The notes beneath the pieces are model-generated. The model did no database searches. It saw only the letters and a program-made list of their open reading frames with translations, and was not told the DNA's origin. Source: a bacterium (GTDB lineage Bacteria > Cyanobacteriota > Vampirovibrionia > Gastranaerophilales > Gastranaerophilaceae). From it: a DNA stretch of 50,433 bases. Of the stretch, positions 4,058 through 49,991 are shown one piece after another; position 1 is the stretch's first letter; the number at the start of each line of letters is the position of its first letter. The stretch lies in assembly GCA_017471365.1 (NCBI GenBank), contig JAFUUC010000002.1, forward strand, positions 1-50,433, read 5' to 3'. The translations under genes and the position numbers were made by a program.

Positions 4058-5080
4058 TTAATTCTTAATTTTTCCTCTTAACTGTCCGCAAGCTGCATCG
4101 ATATCCGCTCCACGTTCAAGTCTTACCGTTACTTTTTTACCGGAATGTTCCATCAGGTATTTAAATTTCATAATGGAATTATTTGAAGGTCGTTGATAGT
4201 CATTTTTTTCAGTTGGATTGTAAGGGATTAAATTAATATTACATTTTATATCTTTTAAGTAAGCAGCAAGTTGTTTTGCCGCATCAATCGTATCATTTAG
4301 ATCTTTGATCAAAAGATACTCAATGGTAATTCTGCGTCCGGTTTTATCTACATAATTTTTCAAAGCCTTATGAAGTTCATCCATAGGATATTTGTCTTCA
4401 ATTTTCATTAATTTAGATCGAATTTCATGATTTGGTGCGTGGAGAGAAATTGCCAGTGTTGACTGCATATCAAGTTGAGCAAGCTTATTAATTTGCGGAA
4501 TAATCCCTGATGTTGAAAGAGTTAAACGCCTTGCTCCAATCTGAAAATCTTCATTAAAGATTTGCATCGCTTTTAAAACATTATCGAGGTTAAGTAGAGG
4601 TTCACCTTGCCCCATAAAAACAATATTAGTAACCTTCAACCCTGTATCACGCTGAATCGTCAAAACCTGCTCAACAATTTCTTTATAATTAAGATTTCTA
4701 ATAAATCCACGTTTACCAGTTGCACAGAAAGAACAATTAACAGCACAGCCAACTTGAGAACTAACACAAGCAGTCAAATTAGCACGGTTATCAAATCTCA
4801 TCAAAACAGTCTCTACGCATTCGCCATCAGGATACTCAAGCAAATACTTTAACGTACCGTCGCAACTTTCTTGCTTAACCTTTATTTTTACATCAGTAAC
4901 ACAAGCAACAGACTTCAACTCATCTCGAAACTTTTTAGATAAATCGGTCATCTGGTCAATATCACCAACCGACTTTAGATAAATCCAATTGTGAATCTGT
5001 CTTGCTCGGAATTTTGATGCACCGAGTTTGGACGTTAATTCCTCTATTTCCGAAAGATTTAAGCCTGACAATACTTGCAT
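4058..5080 (-). CDS. rlmN: 23S rRNA (adenine-2503-C2)-methyltransferase / tRNA methyltransferase RlmN
   Basis: Full-length (340 aa) RlmN, the dual-specificity radical SAM methyltransferase that methylates C2 of A2503 in 23S rRNA and A37 of some tRNAs. Visible: N-terminal RNA-binding accessory domain (KFRARQIHNWIYLK), CX3CX2C cluster motif CAVNCSFC about residue 113, MGQGEPLLN, and the C-terminal catalytic Cys in DAACGQLRGK. There is no SD upstream of ATG 5080; instead a promoter ends 6 bases before it, predicting a leaderless mRNA. It heads the minus-strand group of radical SAM protein, hypothetical and acyl-CoA ligase. Confidence 0.95.
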   Translation of the reverse strand: MQVLSGLNLSEIEELTSKLGASKFRARQIHNWIYLKSVGDIDQMTDLSKKFRDELKSVACVTDVKIKVKQESCDGTLKYLLEYPDGECVETVLMRFDNRANLTACVSSQVGCAVNCSFCATGKRGFIRNLNYKEIVEQVLTIQRDTGLKVTNIVFMGQGEPLLNLDNVLKAMQIFNEDFQIGARRLTLSTSGIIPQINKLAQLDMQSTLAISLHAPNHEIRSKLMKIEDKYPMDELHKALKNYVDKTGRRITIEYLLIKDLNDTIDAAKQLAAYLKDIKCNINLIPYNPTEKNDYQRPSNNSIMKFKYLMEHSGKKVTVRLERGADIDAACGQLRGKIKN

Positions 5081-5086
5081 AAGTCG

Positions 5087-5115
5087 ATTATTGCATACAC
5101 AAAACTTTTGTTCAA
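5087..5115 (-). promoter_or_regulatory. rlmN promoter, predicted leaderless start
   Basis: On the minus strand TTGAAC (5110-5115), 17-base spacer, AATAAT (5087-5092), then 6 bases to the rlmN ATG. Transcription would start at or next to the initiation codon; no SD is present. Confidence 0.5.
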
Positions 5116-5574: not shown

Positions 5575-7425
5575 ATGAATAAAATATCCGTAGTAATACC
5601 TATATTTAATGCCGAATCAACAATCTCAAGGTGTTTAGACAGTTTGCAAAATCAAACATTAAAAGAAATTGAAATAATATGTATAGATGATAAATCTAAT
5701 GATACAACATCAAGCATTTTAAGACATTATGAGGCCAAAGATAATAGGATTAGAATAATAACTTTTGAAAAAAATTATGGTTGTAACGTTGCAAGAAATA
5801 CCGGAATACAAAATTGTAATGGAGAATATATAGGGTTTGTCGACGCAGATGATTTTATAAGCGAAAATTATTTTGAAGAGTTATATAAAACTGCAAAAGC
5901 ACATAATAGCGATATTTGTGCAACCGATCAAGTAGTTATTTATAATTCAAGTAATTATAAAAATACTGGAATTAACATTGCAAGCACAATTATAAAAAAC
6001 ATACCAGAAAAAGGAAATATCATCACAGCGTCCGGAATAACTTGGAATAAAATTTATAAAAGGGACTTCATTATAAAAAATGGTATCAAATTTTATGAAA
6101 CCAAAATTGCCGGGGGAGACAATTATTTTACGGCAATGGCTGTTATACTTGCTAATAGCATAGCTATAAATCATACCGCAGAGTATTACTATGTACAATT
6201 AACTAATTCAATTGTACATAGGCCTAAGGATAAGAAATCCTTTGAAATAATAAAACTATATGAAACAATTGAGCAAAATATTAAAAACAATAGAAACTTA
6301 TCCCCAGAAGAGAAAAAAGAATGGTTGAAGATTATACAGATTAGAGAAAGGCGTGATTTTGAAACATTTAAACAAGCCATGTCACAAAAATATGTAAAAA
6401 AGTTTAAAAGGTTAATAAATCGTAAAATAAACAAAATATCATTCTTAGAAAAAATATTTTCTATAAAAAATTCAACAACTGACAACTTTCACAAAGTAAT
6501 ACGAATTTTAGGTTTAGAGATTAAGTATCGTTCTAAAAGTCGTATAATAAAACGCATGTCACACATTATAGAGCGTATGAACTATGAAAAAGAATTTTTA
6601 AAAATCCACGGAATAAATAAAGAAAAAATATCAAGCTATATATCAAATTTTAATTCGTACGGCATTACGCAAGACAAAAGAAAAACAAAAATAATTGTTT
6701 CCCTTACTTCATATCCGGAAAGAATGTACGATTTGCATTATTGCATATATTCACTACTTACACAAGAAACAAAACCAGATGAAGTTATTCTCTGGCTTGC
6801 GAAAGAGCAATTTCCGAACAGGGAAAAAGATATTCCTAAACAGGTTTTAGATTTAATTAAAAATGGGCTTTCAATAAAATTTTGTGAAGATATAAAATCT
6901 TACAAAAAATTAATACCTGCTTTAAGGGAATACCCAAATGATATTATTGTTACCGCAGATGATGATATTTTTTATGATTATAATTGGCTCGAAAAGCTTT
7001 ATAATGAGTATGAGGGTGATTGCGTCATAGCTCATCGATGCCATAGGATTATAATTGAGAATGAAAAAATTCTTCCATATCGTAACTGGGAAAAATGTGT
7101 TATCAAAAACAATCCGTCATTTTTAAATTTTGCAACTGGAGCAGGAGGTATCATGTACCCTCCGCACTGTCTACACAAAGAAGTTGCAAATGAAGCATTA
7201 TTCAAAAAATTGGCACCAAAAGCCGATGATGTTTGGTTCTGGGCTATGAGCGTGTTAAATAATACCAAAATAAAAACTGTAACTGAGCCAAATAGAGAAC
7301 TAAAATATGTTAACCCTGAAAGAGAACTCGGTTTTAATGAAGATGGAACACTGTGTGCAACTAACAAGTTTGAAAATGATTTACAGATTTCAAATGTTAT
7401 AGAATACCTAAATATTCAGCCTTAA
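5575..7425 (+). CDS. Two-domain glycosyltransferase (GT2 N-terminal + second GT-A-like C-terminal domain)
   Basis: 616 residues. The N-terminus (about 1-230) is a GT2 inverting glycosyltransferase: opening SVVIPIFNAESTISRCLDSL, CIDDKSND, and the metal-binding FVDADDF. A helical, basic linker with VIRILGLEIKY leads to a C-terminal domain (about 365-616) with KIIVSLTSYPERM, KPDEVILWL, and IIVTADDDIFY, which looks like a second GT-A fold with its own DDD motif. The same C-terminal domain ends the GT8 fusion at 24610-26553. No membrane segment is visible, so it is probably cytoplasmic and works on surface glycans. SD AGGAGA precedes ATG by 6 bases. Its stop overlaps the convergent phosphoesterase stop by 4 bases. 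Acceptor and sugar are unknown. Confidence 0.85.
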   Translation: MNKISVVIPIFNAESTISRCLDSLQNQTLKEIEIICIDDKSNDTTSSILRHYEAKDNRIRIITFEKNYGCNVARNTGIQNCNGEYIGFVDADDFISENYFEELYKTAKAHNSDICATDQVVIYNSSNYKNTGINIASTIIKNIPEKGNIITASGITWNKIYKRDFIIKNGIKFYETKIAGGDNYFTAMAVILANSIAINHTAEYYYVQLTNSIVHRPKDKKSFEIIKLYETIEQNIKNNRNLSPEEKKEWLKIIQIRERRDFETFKQAMSQKYVKKFKRLINRKINKISFLEKIFSIKNSTTDNFHKVIRILGLEIKYRSKSRIIKRMSHIIERMNYEKEFLKIHGINKEKISSYISNFNSYGITQDKRKTKIIVSLTSYPERMYDLHYCIYSLLTQETKPDEVILWLAKEQFPNREKDIPKQVLDLIKNGLSIKFCEDIKSYKKLIPALREYPNDIIVTADDDIFYDYNWLEKLYNEYEGDCVIAHRCHRIIIENEKILPYRNWEKCVIKNNPSFLNFATGAGGIMYPPHCLHKEVANEALFKKLAPKADDVWFWAMSVLNNTKIKTVTEPNRELKYVNPERELGFNEDGTLCATNKFENDLQISNVIEYLNIQP

Positions 7426-8156
7426 AAATGTCTTTCATCAGGGCTTAATAACAAATCAGATAATCTGTCTGCACCAATAAATCCTCTTTGAGACATTATT
7501 TCTGCCGCAGCTTTGTTATCGTATGTAATAAATCTATGACGAACCTCAAAAGACCCATTTTCAAAATCGATAATAGCGTAACAAGCTCTCGGTTTTTCCG
7601 TCAATGGTCTCCCTACACTACCGACATTAACAACAGTTTGCCCCGAATTTGTTTGATAACCGCAAGGTATATGAGTATGACCACATAATATAAGTTTTTC
7701 TCCAACGCCTGAAATTATTTCTTCAATTTCCTCTAGCGGCATCTCCGGTAAAATATCCTCATCATTTCTTCGTGGAGAACCATGAACTAATAAAACACTA
7801 CAACCGTCAACATCCAAACTTAGTTGAGGAGGTAAATTTGCTAAAAAAGCTCTGTGAGAATCGTCAAGAACTTTCATATCATCTGCAATTGCATTTGCCA
7901 TAACAGGTGCATGTTCTTCAAGAAATTCCATAATTTCCTGTCCATAATTCGCTATCATTTTATCAGTATTACCCTGAATAACAGTCCAAGTAGGTTGAGA
8001 CATAACATATTCAACAACCTCTTTCGGTTGAGGTCCTGCCAATGCTAAATCTCCAAGACAAAATACATGCTCACACCCTTGTTCAACCGCATCCCCCATA
8101 ACAGCTTCCAAAGCCTGAACGTTAGCATGAATATCCGATAATACTGCTACTTTCAT
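7422..8156 (-). CDS. Metallophosphoesterase (calcineurin-like, YfcE/MJ0936 type)
   Basis: A 244-residue single-domain phosphoesterase. All metal-binding blocks are visible in order: SDIHAN, GDLALAGPQ, QGNTD, LVHGSPRR and CGHTHIP. Family members are dinuclear-metal phosphodiesterases or phosphatases of small substrates; which substrate this one uses cannot be told. Cytoplasmic, no signal. SD AGGAG lies 9 bases before the ATG. Divergent from ispG across 38 bases, with overlapping promoters. Confidence 0.88.
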   Translation of the reverse strand: MKVAVLSDIHANVQALEAVMGDAVEQGCEHVFCLGDLALAGPQPKEVVEYVMSQPTWTVIQGNTDKMIANYGQEIMEFLEEHAPVMANAIADDMKVLDDSHRAFLANLPPQLSLDVDGCSVLLVHGSPRRNDEDILPEMPLEEIEEIISGVGEKLILCGHTHIPCGYQTNSGQTVVNVGSVGRPLTEKPRACYAIIDFENGSFEVRHRFITYDNKAAAEIMSQRGFIGADRLSDLLLSPDERHF

Positions 8157-8182
8157 ATAATTTTTCTCCTATTTTTACGTGA

Positions 8183-8216
8183 TACAATTATCTTATGATA
8201 AACAGAAGAAAATCAA
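8183..8216. promoter_or_regulatory. Overlapping divergent promoters of ispG and the phosphoesterase
   Basis: For ispG, TACAAT (8183-8188) ends 6 bases before the ATG; the -35 region is poor. For the phosphoesterase, minus-strand TTGATT (8211-8216), 18 bases, GATAAT (8187-8192). The two -10 boxes overlap, and the minus-strand -35 lies inside ispG, so the two promoters probably compete. Confidence 0.45.
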
Positions 8217-9247
8217 AAGAAATTTCAATCGGAAATGTAAAAATCGGTAACAATAATCCAATTAGTGTTCAATCAATGTGCAACACGGATACCCGTGATA
8301 TAAATTCTACAAGTCGACAAATTAAGGAACTATCAGATGCCGGATGTGAACTCATAAGGCTTGCCGTGCTAAACAAAGATGCAGCTGATGCAATTAAGGA
8401 TCTGGTTAAAATTTCACCGGTACCACTTATTGCTGACATTCATTTCGACTACAGACTAGCCATAAAATGTATAAACAACGGAATTTCTGCACTAAGGCTT
8501 AACCCTGGAAATATTGGCAAAAGGGAAAATGTTGAAGCAGTGGTTAAATTAGCAAAACAACAGAAAATTCCAATTAGGATTGGTGTAAATGCCGGTTCTT
8601 TAGAAAAGGAGCTACAAAATAAAAATATTTCACTTGCTGAAAAAATGGTAGAAAGTGCTATGGGGCATATAAAAATTTTAGAAGATTTAGATTTCGATTT
8701 GATAAAAGTTTCTCTAAAATCATCCGATGTAATAACAACCACTGAAGCATACCAATCCATAGCGAAAAAAATTCCATACCCGCTTCATATAGGATTAACC
8801 GAGGCCGGAACACTTAAAGGCGGCTTGATCAAATCATCTGTCGGGATAGGTACTTTGCTGGCTCAAGGTATTGGAGATACCATAAGAGTCTCCTTGACGG
8901 AAAACCCCGTTGAAGAAGTTCACGCCGGATATGGTATTTTAAAATGTCTTAATTTAAGAAAAAAGGGTATTAATTTTATATCCTGTCCAACCTGTGGAAG
9001 AACTCAAATAAATTTGATTCCCCTGGCTAAACAAGTTGAAGAACGTTTCAAAAATTATGACGAAAATATAACTATTGCCGTAATGGGTTGTGCAGTAAAT
9101 GGCCCGGGAGAAGCAAGCCACGCGGATTTTGGCATTGCGGGCGGAATTGGTGTAGGTTATATCTTTAAAAAAGGTGAAATTATTGCAAAAGTTCCAGAAG
9201 AAGAACTTTTAAATAAATTGGAAGAAATAATAAAATCCTCTAAATAA
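8195..9247 (+). CDS. ispG: 4-hydroxy-3-methylbut-2-en-1-yl diphosphate synthase (IspG/GcpE)
   Basis: Penultimate MEP-pathway enzyme: reductive conversion of MEcPP to HMBPP for isoprenoid synthesis. At 350 aa it is the short bacterial form. Visible: N-terminal TIM-barrel start (GNVKIGNNNPISVQSMCNTDT), PLIADIHFDYRLA, RIGVNAGSL, and the [4Fe-4S] ligands in SCPTCGRTQ and MGCAVNGPGEASHADFG near the end. No SD precedes ATG 8195; TTATG follows the -10 box directly, so a leaderless mRNA is predicted. Transcribed away from the phosphoesterase gene. Confidence 0.96.
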   Translation: MINRRKSKEISIGNVKIGNNNPISVQSMCNTDTRDINSTSRQIKELSDAGCELIRLAVLNKDAADAIKDLVKISPVPLIADIHFDYRLAIKCINNGISALRLNPGNIGKRENVEAVVKLAKQQKIPIRIGVNAGSLEKELQNKNISLAEKMVESAMGHIKILEDLDFDLIKVSLKSSDVITTTEAYQSIAKKIPYPLHIGLTEAGTLKGGLIKSSVGIGTLLAQGIGDTIRVSLTENPVEEVHAGYGILKCLNLRKKGINFISCPTCGRTQINLIPLAKQVEERFKNYDENITIAVMGCAVNGPGEASHADFGIAGGIGVGYIFKKGEIIAKVPEEELLNKLEEIIKSSK

Positions 9248-17225: not shown

Positions 17226-17276
17226 ATTATACCAGTATATGACATAATTGCAAGAAAGGAATTTTTATAATAAAAT
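17226..17276. promoter_or_regulatory. Divergent promoters sharing a self-complementary -35 box (prfB / membrane protein)
   Basis: TTGCAA at 17248-17253 reads the same on both strands. Rightward: 17-base spacer to TAAAAT (17271-17276), which ends 7 bases before the prfB ATG. Leftward: 16-base spacer to a perfect TATAAT (minus strand, 17226-17231) ahead of the membrane-protein gene. One hexamer may therefore serve both directions. Confidence 0.55.
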
Positions 17277-17283
17277 TCTGAAT

Positions 17284-18367
17284 ATGGAAACAGAGTTGAA
17301 ACAAGAATTGAATCTTATAAAGTCTCGAATAGACCAAATAAAGGAGTGTCTTTGACCCTAACAGGTTAGAACTTGAACTTAAAGATCTAGAACAAGAAAT
17401 GCAACAACCTGACATTTGGTCTGACACTTCAAAAGTGTCAAAGCTAGGACAAGAAATAAGAGAAAAAAAAGATATTATAGACAAACTTTCCAACTGGTCT
17501 CAGATCATTTCTGATTGCGAAGCAGCACTTGAACTGAAGGATAAAGAACTTATTACGCTAAGTTATGAGGAAGTCCAAAATTTAAAATCAGAAATAGAAA
17601 AATTTAAACTACAACAAATGCTTTCAGGCGAATATGACAGTGCTGATGCGATTTTGACAATAAATTCAGGAGCCGGAGGAACAGATGCTCAAGACTGGGC
17701 AAGTATGCTTTTAAGGATGTATCTTCGCTGGGTTGAAAAACGTGGTTGGAAATCAGAAATTTTGGATAAACTTGAGGGAGAAGAAGCCGGTATAAAATCT
17801 GCAACCATAAAAATTTGTGGTAAATATGCGTTTGGATATTCAAAAGCAGAAAAAGGGGTGCATAGGCTTGTTAGAATTTCTCCATTTAATGCAAACGGTA
17901 AAAGACAAACCAGTTTTGCATCTGTAGATGTTTCTCCGATAGTTGAAGATTTTGAAAAAACAATTTCAATTCCGCCGGAAGATCTTGAGATTACAACAAT
18001 GCGTTCTGGGGGAGCAGGAGGACAAAATGTAAATAAAGTTGAGACAGCCGTAAGGATTTTACACAAACCTTCGGGAATTGTGGTAAAATGTCAGCAGGAG
18101 CGTTCTCAACTTCAAAATAAAGAGTACGCAATGCAGATCCTTGTATCAAAACTCCTTGCAATAAAGGAAGCTGAACACGAAGAAAAAATGGCACAACTTA
18201 GAGGAGAAACATCTGAAATTAATTTTGGTTCTCAAATCAGATCATACGTTTTTCACCCATACAAGATGGTAAAAGATCATAGAACAGGATTTGAAGTTGG
18301 AAATATAGATTCTGTAATGGACGGGGATTTGGATGGTTTTGTAGAAAGTTGGTTAAGACAATTTTAA
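17284..18367 (+). CDS. prfB: Peptide chain release factor 2, with programmed +1 frameshift
   Basis: RF2 terminates at UGA and UAA. Twenty-three codons run from ATG 17284 to CTT (17350-17352), then an in-frame TGA (17353-17355); skipping T17353 continues the frame (GAC at 17354) to 18367, giving 360 aa, the normal length. The downstream frame alone would give a start inside RF2 and lose the N-terminus. Key parts: SPF tripeptide (RISPFNANG, near 198-200) for stop recognition and GGQ ([13 protein letters not shown], near 246) for hydrolysis. No SD precedes the ATG; the promoter is placed for a leaderless mRNA. The methyltransferase gene follows by 10 bases. Confidence 0.97.
17343..17356 (+). promoter_or_regulatory. 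Programmed +1 frameshift site of prfB (autoregulation)
   Basis: GGAG lies three bases before CTT TGA C, the classical RF2 arrangement: an internal SD-like sequence, slippery CUU and UGA followed by C. When RF2 is scarce the ribosome slips +1 and full-length RF2 is made. Confidence 0.95.
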
Positions 18368-33424: not shown

Positions 33425-33777
33425 GTCTTGAGTTGCTCGCAATAAACGGATCTGCCTATTTTGCTTTTAGTTGCTTTGAGTCGCAAGAGCAGTAGGTTGG
33501 GCATACTTGCCCAACAATTTGAAACCGAACCAAAACGGATGATTTTTTATTGGCTGAGATTTAGATTGTGGCTGGATTTTGCTAATTTGCTAAAATTTCA
33601 ATGTCCGTTCAAGTCCAAACAAAGTTCGTTATGGTTCATCTAGTTTTTGAATATTCAAACGACTTTCAACAGCTAAAACTCAAATGGATTGCCACGCTTC
33701 GCTCGCAATGACGAGAATGCCTTTCCGACCAAAGCGGACATTAAATCCCATTGCTCAAACTCCCAAACAAAGCTTCT
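33425..33777. repeat. Composite direct repeat, long copy
   Basis: Begins with a 23-base sequence (33425-33447, GTCTTGAGTTGCTCGC...) and ends with a 25-base sequence (33753-33777, GCTCAAACTCCCAAACAAAG...), both found exactly at the ends of the 119-base copy at 34711-34829. In between are ATTTTGCTTTT and other shared pieces, and extra sequence including a REP-like hairpin. No credible gene lies within; the open frames here are chance. Confidence 0.8.
33688..33709. repeat. REP-like imperfect palindrome
   Basis: ATTGCCACGCTTCGCTCGCAAT folds with ATTGC/GCAAT ends. It is the core of a repeat type that I recall from many bacterial genomes, often read as 'cgtcattgcgagcgaagcg'. Confidence 0.55.
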
Positions 33778-33805
33778 TGACAAAATGTCTGCTATAGAGT
33801 ACACT
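33777..33805 (+). promoter_or_regulatory. Toxin-antitoxin promoter, predicted leaderless start
   Basis: TTGACA (33777-33782), 17 bases, TACACT (33800-33805), then 6 bases to the toxin ATG. The first base of the -35 box is the last base of the long repeat copy. No SD is visible. Confidence 0.55.
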
Positions 33806-33811
33806 ATTAAT

Positions 33812-34135
33812 ATGGAGCAAAGAATTGTAAAAATTGTTCAACTATCTAACGGCAAAAGTCCATTTATTGATTGGCTTGAATCATTAGATAAAGTTACAAA
33901 ATCTCGTATTCAATCGAGGTTAACGAGATTATTAGAAAACAATTTTGGCGACCATAAGAGAATTGATAATGAAATATCTGAACTTAGGTTGAAATTTGGC
34001 TCAGGTTACAGAATTTATTACGCAGAAATTGATAATATTGTTGTCTTATTAATAACAGGCGGGAATAAATCAACACAAAGCAAAGATATCCAAAAAGCAA
34101 AAGAAATACTTCAAGAATGGAGAAATATACAATGA
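33812..34135 (+). CDS. RelE/ParE-superfamily (HigB-like) toxin
   Basis: 107 aa from ATG 33812 (MEQRIVKIVQLSNGKSPFI); longer in-frame starts run into the repeat. Visible: FIDWLESLDKVTKSRIQSRLTRLLENNFGDHK, ELRLKFGSGYRIYYAE, VVLLITGGNKSTQSKDIQKAKEI, the pattern of the 'addiction module killer/phage Gp49-like' group. Such toxins are ribosome-dependent mRNA nucleases. The gene precedes the antitoxin, as in higBA, and overlaps it by 4 bases. The AT-rich accessory setting between repeats suggests acquisition. Confidence 0.88.
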   Translation: MEQRIVKIVQLSNGKSPFIDWLESLDKVTKSRIQSRLTRLLENNFGDHKRIDNEISELRLKFGSGYRIYYAEIDNIVVLLITGGNKSTQSKDIQKAKEILQEWRNIQ

Positions 34136-34437
34136 AAAAACTTAAAAATACAATAGATTTAGAAAGTTATATAGTTAATAACTTAAAATCTGATGAAGAT
34201 ATTAAGTTATACTTAAATTCATGTCTAAAAGACTATTTAGAGGACGGCGATTTTAATTCATTCTATCGTGCGTTAGAAATTGTAATTAAAGCAAAGGATA
34301 CAATCGCAGGATTTGCGAAGAAAGTCGGCATGAGCAGAACTCACCTTTATAGTATTTTTAAATCAGAAAAAGAACCAAAATTTTCGACAATTGCAAAAAT
34401 ATTTCAAGAACTCGGCTATGAACTTAAAGTTGCTTAA
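34132..34437 (+). CDS. HigA-like antitoxin (addiction module antidote protein)
   Basis: 101 aa from ATG 34132, preceded by GGAGA inside the toxin gene and overlapping its stop (ATGA). N-terminal helical part (NTIDLESYIVNNLKSDEDIKLYLNS) and a C-terminal helix-turn-helix (DTIAGFAKKVGMSRTHLYSIFKSEKEPKFSTIAKIFQELGY, in outline). It is the cognate antitoxin and autorepressor; a hairpin terminator follows 44 bases downstream. Confidence 0.88.
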   Translation: MKKLKNTIDLESYIVNNLKSDEDIKLYLNSCLKDYLEDGDFNSFYRALEIVIKAKDTIAGFAKKVGMSRTHLYSIFKSEKEPKFSTIAKIFQELGYELKVA

Positions 34438-43764: not shown

Positions 43765-43809
43765 ATTATATATCTAAATATTGAAACATGAAATATACTA
43801 TTATAAAAT
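43765..43809. promoter_or_regulatory. Overlapping divergent promoters: tag (+) and TPR protein (-)
   Basis: tag: TTGAAA (43781-43786), 17 bases, TAAAAT (43804-43809), then 7 bases to the ATG. TPR gene, minus strand: TTTCAT (43788-43793), 17 bases, TATAAT (43765-43770). The two promoters interlock. Confidence 0.55.
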
Positions 43810-43816
43810 AGTATCT

Positions 43817-44359
43817 ATGAAAAGATGTTTTTGGGTAGATGAAAGTTCTGAATTGTATAAAAAATACCACGATGAGGAATGGGGTGTTCCAAAGTATGAT
43901 GATCATGAACTCTTTGAACTTCTTATTTTAGAGTCGTTTCAAGCGGGTTTGTCCTGGTTCATCGTCCTAAAAAAGCGTGATGCATTTAGACTGGCATTTG
44001 ATAATTTTGATGTTGAAAAAGTTGCTTCATACAATGAAAAGAAAATAAACGAACTCCTCCAAAATGAAGGTATAATCAGATCCCGCGGGAAAATTAATGC
44101 TGCCATCAACAATGCAAAAATATTCTTGGAAATTCAAAAAGAATACGGAAGTTTTTCAAATTATATCTGGGGATTCTCAAAAGGTGAAATTATAAAAAAC
44201 AAGGACGACAAATTTGAAGTATCCACTCCGCTATCAGATAAGATTTCAAAAGACTTAAAAAAACGTGGAATGAAATACGTCGGAACCGTTATTATTTACT
44301 CTTATTTGCAGGCAATAGGTATAGTAAATGATCATGAAACAACTTGTTTTAAGTATTAA
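43817..44359 (+). CDS. tag: DNA-3-methyladenine glycosylase I
   Basis: 180 aa from ATG 43817 (MKRCFWVDE), the family's usual opening; a TTG at 43781 would add residues within the promoter. Visible: KRCFWVDES, YHDEEWGVPKYDDHELFELLILESFQAGLSW, and the zinc-site end NDHETTCFKY. It excises 3-methyladenine from alkylated DNA. No SD: the -10 box lies 7 bases before ATG, so a leaderless transcript is predicted. Confidence 0.95.
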   Translation: MKRCFWVDESSELYKKYHDEEWGVPKYDDHELFELLILESFQAGLSWFIVLKKRDAFRLAFDNFDVEKVASYNEKKINELLQNEGIIRSRGKINAAINNAKIFLEIQKEYGSFSNYIWGFSKGEIIKNKDDKFEVSTPLSDKISKDLKKRGMKYVGTVIIYSYLQAIGIVNDHETTCFKY

Positions 44360-48571: not shown

Positions 48572-49731
48572 AAAAAATTACCAGTGAGAAAGTTGAACAA
48601 ATTAAGCCTTCGGGGATTAGAAAATTTTTTGATATCGTCAGCGAAATGAAAGATGCAATTTCACTTGGTGTCGGAGAACCGGATTTTCAAACCCCTTGGC
48701 ACATTAGAGAAGAAGGAATTTATTCTTTTGAACGAGGAAAAACTTTTTACACCTCAAATTCAGGTTTAAAAGATTTAAGAAACGAAATTAGTAACTATGT
48801 CGACACTCATTATAATGTAAAATATAATCCTGACAACGAAATTCTTGTTACCGTTGGAGGTTCAGAAGCAATAGATGTCGGACTTCGTGCAATGCTTAAT
48901 GATGGAGACGAGGTAATCATTCCTCAGCCTTCTTACGTTTCTTATGCTCCTTGTTCCTTTTTGGCAGGCGGGAAAAATATTATTATAGATCTGAAACCTG
49001 AAAACGAGTTTCGGCTGACACCTGAAGAACTGGAAAATGCTGTTACCCCAAGAACAAAAGTTCTTATTCTTCCTTATCCTAATAATCCGACAGGAGCAAT
49101 TATGGAAAAAGAAGACCTTGAAAAAATTGCCAAAATAATACAAGAAAAAGATATTTTTGTTCTGTCCGATGAAATATATGCGGAATTGACATATAAAGGT
49201 CAACACGTCTCAATAGCTAGTTTTGACGGACTGAAAGAGAGAACACTTTTAATTAACGGATTTTCTAAAGCTTTTGCAATGACAGGGTGGCGGCTTGGTT
49301 ATGCCTGTGGTAATAAAGAACTTATTAAACAAATGACTAAAATTCACCAGTTTTCTATAATGTGTGCCCCGACATTAAGCCAATACGCTGCAATCGAAGC
49401 ATTAAAAAATGGTGATGATGACGTTAAAATAATGAGAGAAGCCTACAATCAGCGTCGCAGATTTTTGCTCGATGCATTTAGAAATATGAACCTGGAATGC
49501 TTTGAACCTTTTGGAGCATTTTATGTTTTCCCTTGTATAAAAGAATTTGGGATGAGCAGTGAAGAATTTGCTACTAAATTATTACAGGAAGAAAAAGTTG
49601 CAGCCGTACCCGGAACAGCATTTGGTAACAGTGGCGAAGGATACTTGAGAATATCTTATGCTTATTCACTTGAAAAATTAAAAATCGCAATGGAAAGAAT
49701 GAAAAGGTTTATAACAAAATTACGGGGTTAA
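48568..49731 (+). CDS. Aminotransferase class I/II (PLP-dependent)
   Basis: 387 aa. PLP lysine in INGFSKAFAMTGWRLGYACG, aspartate for the pyridine ring in LILPYPNNPTGAIMEKE-type block, YAEL and R in LRISYAYS for the carboxylate. Members transfer amino groups from aspartate, alanine or other amino acids to 2-oxoglutarate; the substrate here is not clear. Cotranscribed with the Lrp regulator. Stops in a 4-base overlap with the convergent XRE gene. Confidence 0.92.
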   Translation: MKKITSEKVEQIKPSGIRKFFDIVSEMKDAISLGVGEPDFQTPWHIREEGIYSFERGKTFYTSNSGLKDLRNEISNYVDTHYNVKYNPDNEILVTVGGSEAIDVGLRAMLNDGDEVIIPQPSYVSYAPCSFLAGGKNIIIDLKPENEFRLTPEELENAVTPRTKVLILPYPNNPTGAIMEKEDLEKIAKIIQEKDIFVLSDEIYAELTYKGQHVSIASFDGLKERTLLINGFSKAFAMTGWRLGYACGNKELIKQMTKIHQFSIMCAPTLSQYAAIEALKNGDDDVKIMREAYNQRRRFLLDAFRNMNLECFEPFGAFYVFPCIKEFGMSSEEFATKLLQEEKVAAVPGTAFGNSGEGYLRISYAYSLEKLKIAMERMKRFITKLRG

Positions 49732-49931
49732 TCCGGCGTAAATTCAAACAACTCCTGCGAATTACATTGAAGAATATTACAAATTTTGTTTAAGGTATCA
49801 AAATCAATACCCTTAGTTTTGTTGTGATAAATCTTATTCAACGCATTTTGACTGATACCTGTAAGTTTCGACAACTCCGAAACCCGCATTCTTTGCTCGC
49901 CTAGGATAGCAGACAACCTGTTTTTTATCAT
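49728..49931 (-). CDS. Small XRE/Cro-type regulator, 67 aa
   Basis: A whole-protein helix-turn-helix of HTH_26 size: MIKNRLSAILGEQRMRVSELS, KLTGISQNALNKIYHNK, DFDTLNKICNILQC. No SD; TAAAAT (minus strand 49938-49943) ends 6 bases before ATG, so a leaderless mRNA is predicted. Divergent from the prepilin gene, whose promoter has a TACAT/ATGTA-rich dyad, so it may control that gene. Alternative: a stray phage-type regulator. Confidence 0.85.
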   Translation of the reverse strand: MIKNRLSAILGEQRMRVSELSKLTGISQNALNKIYHNKTKGIDFDTLNKICNILQCNSQELFEFTPD

Positions 49932-49937
49932 AAAAAC

Positions 49938-49991
49938 ATTTTAACAATATAAATCTACAGGATTGACTTTTACATCTAAGCATGTAATAAT
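49938..49991. promoter_or_regulatory. Divergent promoters: XRE gene (-) and prepilin gene (+)
   Basis: Rightward: TTGACT (49963-49968), 17 bases, AATAAT (49986-49991). The sequence continues with a CATGT...ACATG dyad (49981-49998). Leftward: TAAAAT 6 bases before the XRE ATG; its -35 box is poor. Confidence 0.5.

Follow-up and report, generated by a model that had tools for sequence, protein, structure and literature searches.

About one gene in ten in the Gastranaerophilaceae, a family of uncultured, non-photosynthetic cyanobacterial relatives from animal guts, is of a leaderless type, and we put at roughly 0.9 the probability that the promoter of such genes places the mRNA start on the start codon, as their upstream sequences indicate. 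The earlier note had proposed this reading for six genes of the window, the stretch of 50,433 nucleotides analysed here; it is supported by a sharp peak in spacing, promoter hallmarks, exclusion of SD sequences, depletion inside operons, and positions kept across species.

In the mechanism that we envisage, RNA polymerase with the housekeeping (sigma70-type) factor would bind a -35/-10 or an extended -10 promoter. Because the -10 box ends 6 bases before ATG, the normal start, 7 bases past the box, would be the A of the start codon; the mRNA would then open with 5'-AUG, leaving no space for an SD sequence, and the ribosome would initiate at this terminal AUG, as a 70S particle if other bacteria are a guide. 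The layout coexists with a larger SD-led class in the same genome. We infer the mRNA 5' end and translation from 5'-AUG on the strength of known promoter geometry and of what is seen in other bacteria.

Spacing of the -10 Box

The window is one contig of a 1.81-Mb assembly in 109 contigs (GC 33%). Genes were called by hexamer bias in a sample of 0.98 Mb of this genome, start codons were picked computationally, blind to any upstream signal, and a -10 box was defined as TA...T with at least four of six matches to TATAAT. The earlier note had suggested a genome-wide count against controls, and in that count the boxes cluster sharply at exactly 6 bases: 98 of 853 genes have one ending there, whereas neighbouring spacings, taken as decoys, average 16.2 (Poisson p ~3e-43). 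A second signal-blind choice of starts gave 93 of 816 against 15.2, and internal in-frame ATGs have a box at spacing 6 in 1.7% of cases, compared with 11.8% at gene starts. The same single peak at 6 is found in a genome of the same genus (37 of 365 genes) and in one of another genus of the family (30 of 371); when the three genomes are pooled, spacing 6 occurs in 165 of 1589 genes, with 31 expected. The layout is thus carried by ~10% of all genes, and by ~13% of those not directly behind a same-strand neighbour.

The rule of 6 to 7 bases that had been proposed holds at 6 and is diluted at 7, which is weakly enriched (30 genes against 16 in the 853-gene sample, p 0.001); spacing 5 has 10 genes in the same sample. 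Individual 7-spaced genes can hardly be separated from chance by the genome count alone, and for this reason the two in the window, prfB and tag, rest on conservation as well. A further apparent peak, at spacing 11, did not hold up, since half of its boxes overlap a spacing-6 box and the remainder is background.

In an unlikely alternative, the promoters are real but initiation falls 1 to 5 bases ahead of the ATG, so that the mRNA would carry a very short leader and not begin strictly at 5'-AUG. Such leaders would fit the wobble of one or two bases in start-site choice by RNA polymerase, the small excess at spacing 7, and the switching of tag between 6 and 7 among species, but the peak occupies a single base, at 6, where T at -1 and A at +1 make up a favoured start pair; spacings 8 to 10 have no excess, and the bump at 11 comes from the overlapping boxes.

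The Boxes as Promoters

The spacing-6 boxes are sigma70-type promoters and not ribosome-binding elements, because they come with a -35 at 17 bp, a T at -1, a near-absence of SD, and a near-absence inside operons. Among the 165 spacing-6 genes of the three genomes, 45 have a -35 hexamer (at least four of six matches) at a 17-bp spacer, as against 3-17 genes (roughly 8 on average) at each of the other spacers between 10 and 25; the TG extension of the -10 is present in 61. T stands at -1 in 79% of spacing-6 genes and in 46% of the remaining genes, the T-A step being the pair that RNA polymerase favours at its start point. An SD sequence accompanies the box in 2 of 93 genes, compared with 375 of the 723 genes without a box (p 4e-24), and the excess of the box is 1.9% in genes that follow a same-strand gene at a distance below 40 bases and 10-17% in all others.

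That the AT-rich box is instead a translation element (an S1 or AT-rich ribosome-binding site) is very improbable. AT-rich upstream signals are known in Bacteroidetes and in other non-SD genes (PMC5397173, PMC9581028), but an element of this kind would be expected in operon-internal genes too and would not avoid operon interiors, as the box does, nor would a -35 spaced by 17 bp or a TG extension be required.

In SD-led genes genome-wide, -10 boxes are scattered about 15-40 bases upstream and beyond. For the SD-led genes of the window, a promoter 25-35 bases upstream had been claimed; the -10 boxes lie ~19 to 47 bases upstream, a wider range. Divergent intergenic regions are slightly shorter for leaderless genes (median 128 versus 155, p 0.04), a difference too weak to build on, and an idea of compact divergent promoters was dropped.

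The Six Genes in the Window

The six SD-less genes had been described as having a -10-like box 6-7 bases before ATG, four of them (rlmN, prfB, tag, and the toxin gene) with a -35 hexamer at 17 bases; the boxes of all six are present letter for letter, and the sequence likewise matches for the four hexamers. The promoter of rlmN (TTGAAC-17-AATAAT-6-ATG) spans 5081..5115 on the reverse strand, with the -35 at 5115-5110, the -10 at 5092-5087, and the ATG at 5080; the coding sequence (340 aa, Pfam RlmN_N and Radical_SAM) occupies 4058..5080 on the same strand. Its position is not fixed across the genus, with a leaderless-type box in some relatives and an SD or operon layout in several others, and rlmN is the weak case among the six.

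On the forward strand, ispG (8195..9247, NF001540 and TIGR00612 above cut-off) is preceded at 8180..8194 by an extended -10 (TGA-TACAAT), identified by sequence match and conservation, in which the TACAAT box starts at 8183 and ends 6 bp before the ATG at 8195 (TACAAT-6-ATG). A phosphodiesterase-like gene (7422-8156) diverges from ispG, the two being separated by 38 bases (8157-8194), and the ispG promoter overlaps the leader of this SD-led neighbour.

The prfB promoter (TTGCAA-17-TAAAAT-7-ATG; 17248..17283, forward strand) is likewise identified by sequence match and by conservation in the genus. The gene (17284..18367, forward strand), recognized from its frameshift arrangement and the GGQ motif in its translation, consists of a first open reading frame of 23 codons that ends in CTT TGA and continues in the +1 frame. 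This type of frameshift is the standard arrangement of release factor 2, and since the ATG at 17284 opens the frameshifted first frame, the promoter is correctly placed before the true start. The combination of leaderless-type promoter and programmed +1 frameshift (KECL-TGA; 17284-17353) is kept in 28 of 30 species.

Upstream of the toxin gene, the promoter (TTGACA-17-TACACT-6-ATG) lies at 33777..33811, a sequence match on the forward strand, and the gene itself at 33812..34135. The 107-aa product has no Pfam match in its own sequence; other leaderless 107-aa proteins that resemble it match PF05973, and an HI1420-type antidote gene (PF21716) starts downstream at 34117, overlapping the 3' end of the toxin gene. 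With this neighbour and these similar proteins, it is probably a HigB/Gp49-like toxin. Strong promoters of the leaderless type (TTGACA-like, 17 bp, TACAxT, 6 bp, ATG) are found repeatedly in front of small toxin genes like this one, at window 33812-34437, L063:17069-17389, and L032:12281-12601.

The gene for 3-methyladenine DNA glycosylase I, tag (43817..44359, forward strand; PF03352, 7e-77), follows a promoter at 43781..43816 on the same strand (TTGAAA-17-TAAAAT-7-ATG), identified by sequence match and conservation in the genus. On the reverse strand, a small Cro/C1-type HTH regulator of 67 aa, the XRE gene (49728..49931; PF13443, 5e-21), has by sequence match a TAAAAT box 6 bp before its ATG (49932..49943).

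Gene Functions and Conservation

Forty strict spacing-6 cases were scanned with curated models at cut-off. Names above cut-off include DnaA, DnaG, HolA, RuvC, UvrC, Mfd, LepA, PrfA, HisS, MnmG, MnmE, MtaB, Der, FtsY, HydF, NadB, ProB, homoserine dehydrogenase, IspG, IspD, Gmk, KdsA, AnmK, and AroQ, plus others. Leaderless HTH genes and Gp49-type toxins were also found by Pfam. The list, to which PrfB belongs together with some regulators and toxins, agrees, as a description, with the characterization of the class as housekeeping and regulatory genes.

When orthologues were paired with the same-genus genome, the box at 6 of the window genome was kept in 12 of 22 pairs; where the window genome lacks it, the partner has one in 11 of 167 pairs (p 2e-7). 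At five decoy spacings, no box was kept in the same pairs, which are reciprocal hits with a mean protein identity of 63%, some of them therefore paralogues. Within the genus, 28 of 30 genomes have the -10 of prfB at 6 (26 genomes) or 7 (2 genomes), the other two having an SD; for tag the figure is again 28 of 30, with 18 genomes at 6 and 10 at 7; and the -10 of ispG lies at 6 in 27 of 29. Among genomes named Candidatus Gastranaerophilales (Melainabacteria), many of them from rumen and gut, 32 of 54 carry the ispG box at 6, and 11 have an SD-like leader before ispG. The DNA between and around the promoter elements diverges freely among species while the spacing persists.

Distribution across Taxa

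An annotation-free pattern, TGNTANAAT-N5-TATG, was counted in raw DNA, with the reversed pattern and the same pattern at spacing 8 as controls. The window genome has 41 matches, against 2 for the reversed control and 5 at spacing 8. Across the sampled genomes of the family (about 95), matches number 10-57 each, mostly 30-50 and typically ~40, with 0-7 (typically 2-3) for the reversed control and mostly 2-10 (about 5 typical) at spacing 8. Another family of the order, f6, lies in between, with 12-16 matches against 0-3 for the control, as does one genome of family f7 (17 against 2); counts in the remainder of the order are low. A pattern combining -35 and -10 occurs 22-72 times per genome in the family and near control level in other families of the class.

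Outgroups were assessed by pattern counts. Photosynthetic cyanobacteria show no such excess, their pattern counts being about at control level, and the genomes of Orenia, Desulfosporosinus, Geobacter, and Halothermothrix have no clear excess over the reversed control. GC differs between the compared groups, so that within-genome controls weigh more than raw counts.

Chance matches, to which an AT content as high as this (GC 33%) and a consensus as short as TANNNT are prone, and which would make up about one in six of the strict set (16/98), may explain single unconserved genes but are excluded for the class, where they have next to no probability in view of p ~3e-43 against neighbouring spacings, the low reversed and spacing-8 controls, and the conservation of spacing across species.

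Known Leaderless Systems and Implications

Leaderless genes as a kind are already known, and the family-wide occurrence in the Gastranaerophilaceae is new as far as the searchable literature shows: among searchable papers, none was found on leaderless or SD usage in Melainabacteria or Vampirovibrionia. Leaderless mRNAs in Deinococcus, as treated by de Groot in 2014, reportedly include those of many housekeeping genes with a -10 box immediately before the ATG. Deinococcus belongs to an unrelated phylum, and its likeness to Gastranaerophilales is one of description.

Zheng et al. (2011, PMC3160421) detected the TANNNT signal ~12 bp upstream in some 206 of the 953 bacterial genomes they surveyed, and the view that this is not a usual route in SD-using bacteria was therefore too strong. 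For predicted leaderless transcription, StartLink+ (PMC9581028) cites a share of 21.6% of bacterial species. The TA-led genes of the 953-genome survey (PMC3160421) share with those described here a TANNNT box ~12 to 7 bases upstream, the lack of SD, a mixture with SD-led genes, and variation between relatives; the Gastranaerophilales family has clear -35 and extended -10 elements. In the survey, leaderless genes exceed 20% in both Actinobacteria and Deinococcus-Thermus, and many Cyanobacteria are described as lacking SD-led and leaderless genes alike; a family of that phylum with ~10% leaderless-type genes would thus be a sizeable leaderless class where many genomes have been described as having neither route. 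Mycobacterium tuberculosis and M. smegmatis (PMC3898074, PMC4633059) similarly have transcripts starting at or beside AUG with a leadered class alongside, and toxin-antitoxin genes are part of the mycobacterial leaderless set (PMC8485053). The mycobacteria differ in being Actinobacteria of high GC with a larger share, mapped by experiment; here GC is low, the share smaller, and the evidence that of sequence.

A more doubtful proposal, which we offer tentatively, is that this gut Cyanobacteriota family acquired, once it had split from its relatives, a stable set of leaderless core genes of low copy number, which would be translated apart from the other genes, by the 5'-AUG route. If this were true, the set would span replication initiation, both release factors, tRNA modification, and repair, it would shift together when the state of the ribosome changes, and in prfB a separate frameshift control would come in addition to the leaderless start. 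The concentration in one family means that a gain of the leaderless route could be studied between close relatives. In these common gut bacteria, gene callers built around an SD may put the start codon in the wrong place in roughly one gene in ten.

Genus g29 of the same family (G182, G192, G194, G206, and others) has 10-21 sites per genome, against mostly 30-50 in its relatives; its leaderless class may be shrinking or using other promoter forms. In ispG of Geobacter and relatives (L253-L257, L264, L266, L270, L272, L273), TTGACTTT...TACTAT stands mostly 8 bases before ATG, which suggests a near-leaderless layout evolved separately in another phylum. At many contig ends of genome G134, a near-identical promoter-start unit, TTGAAATTTT...GATAGTGTATAATGGGAATATG, is present in many copies, which suggests a multicopy, possibly mobile, leaderless gene.
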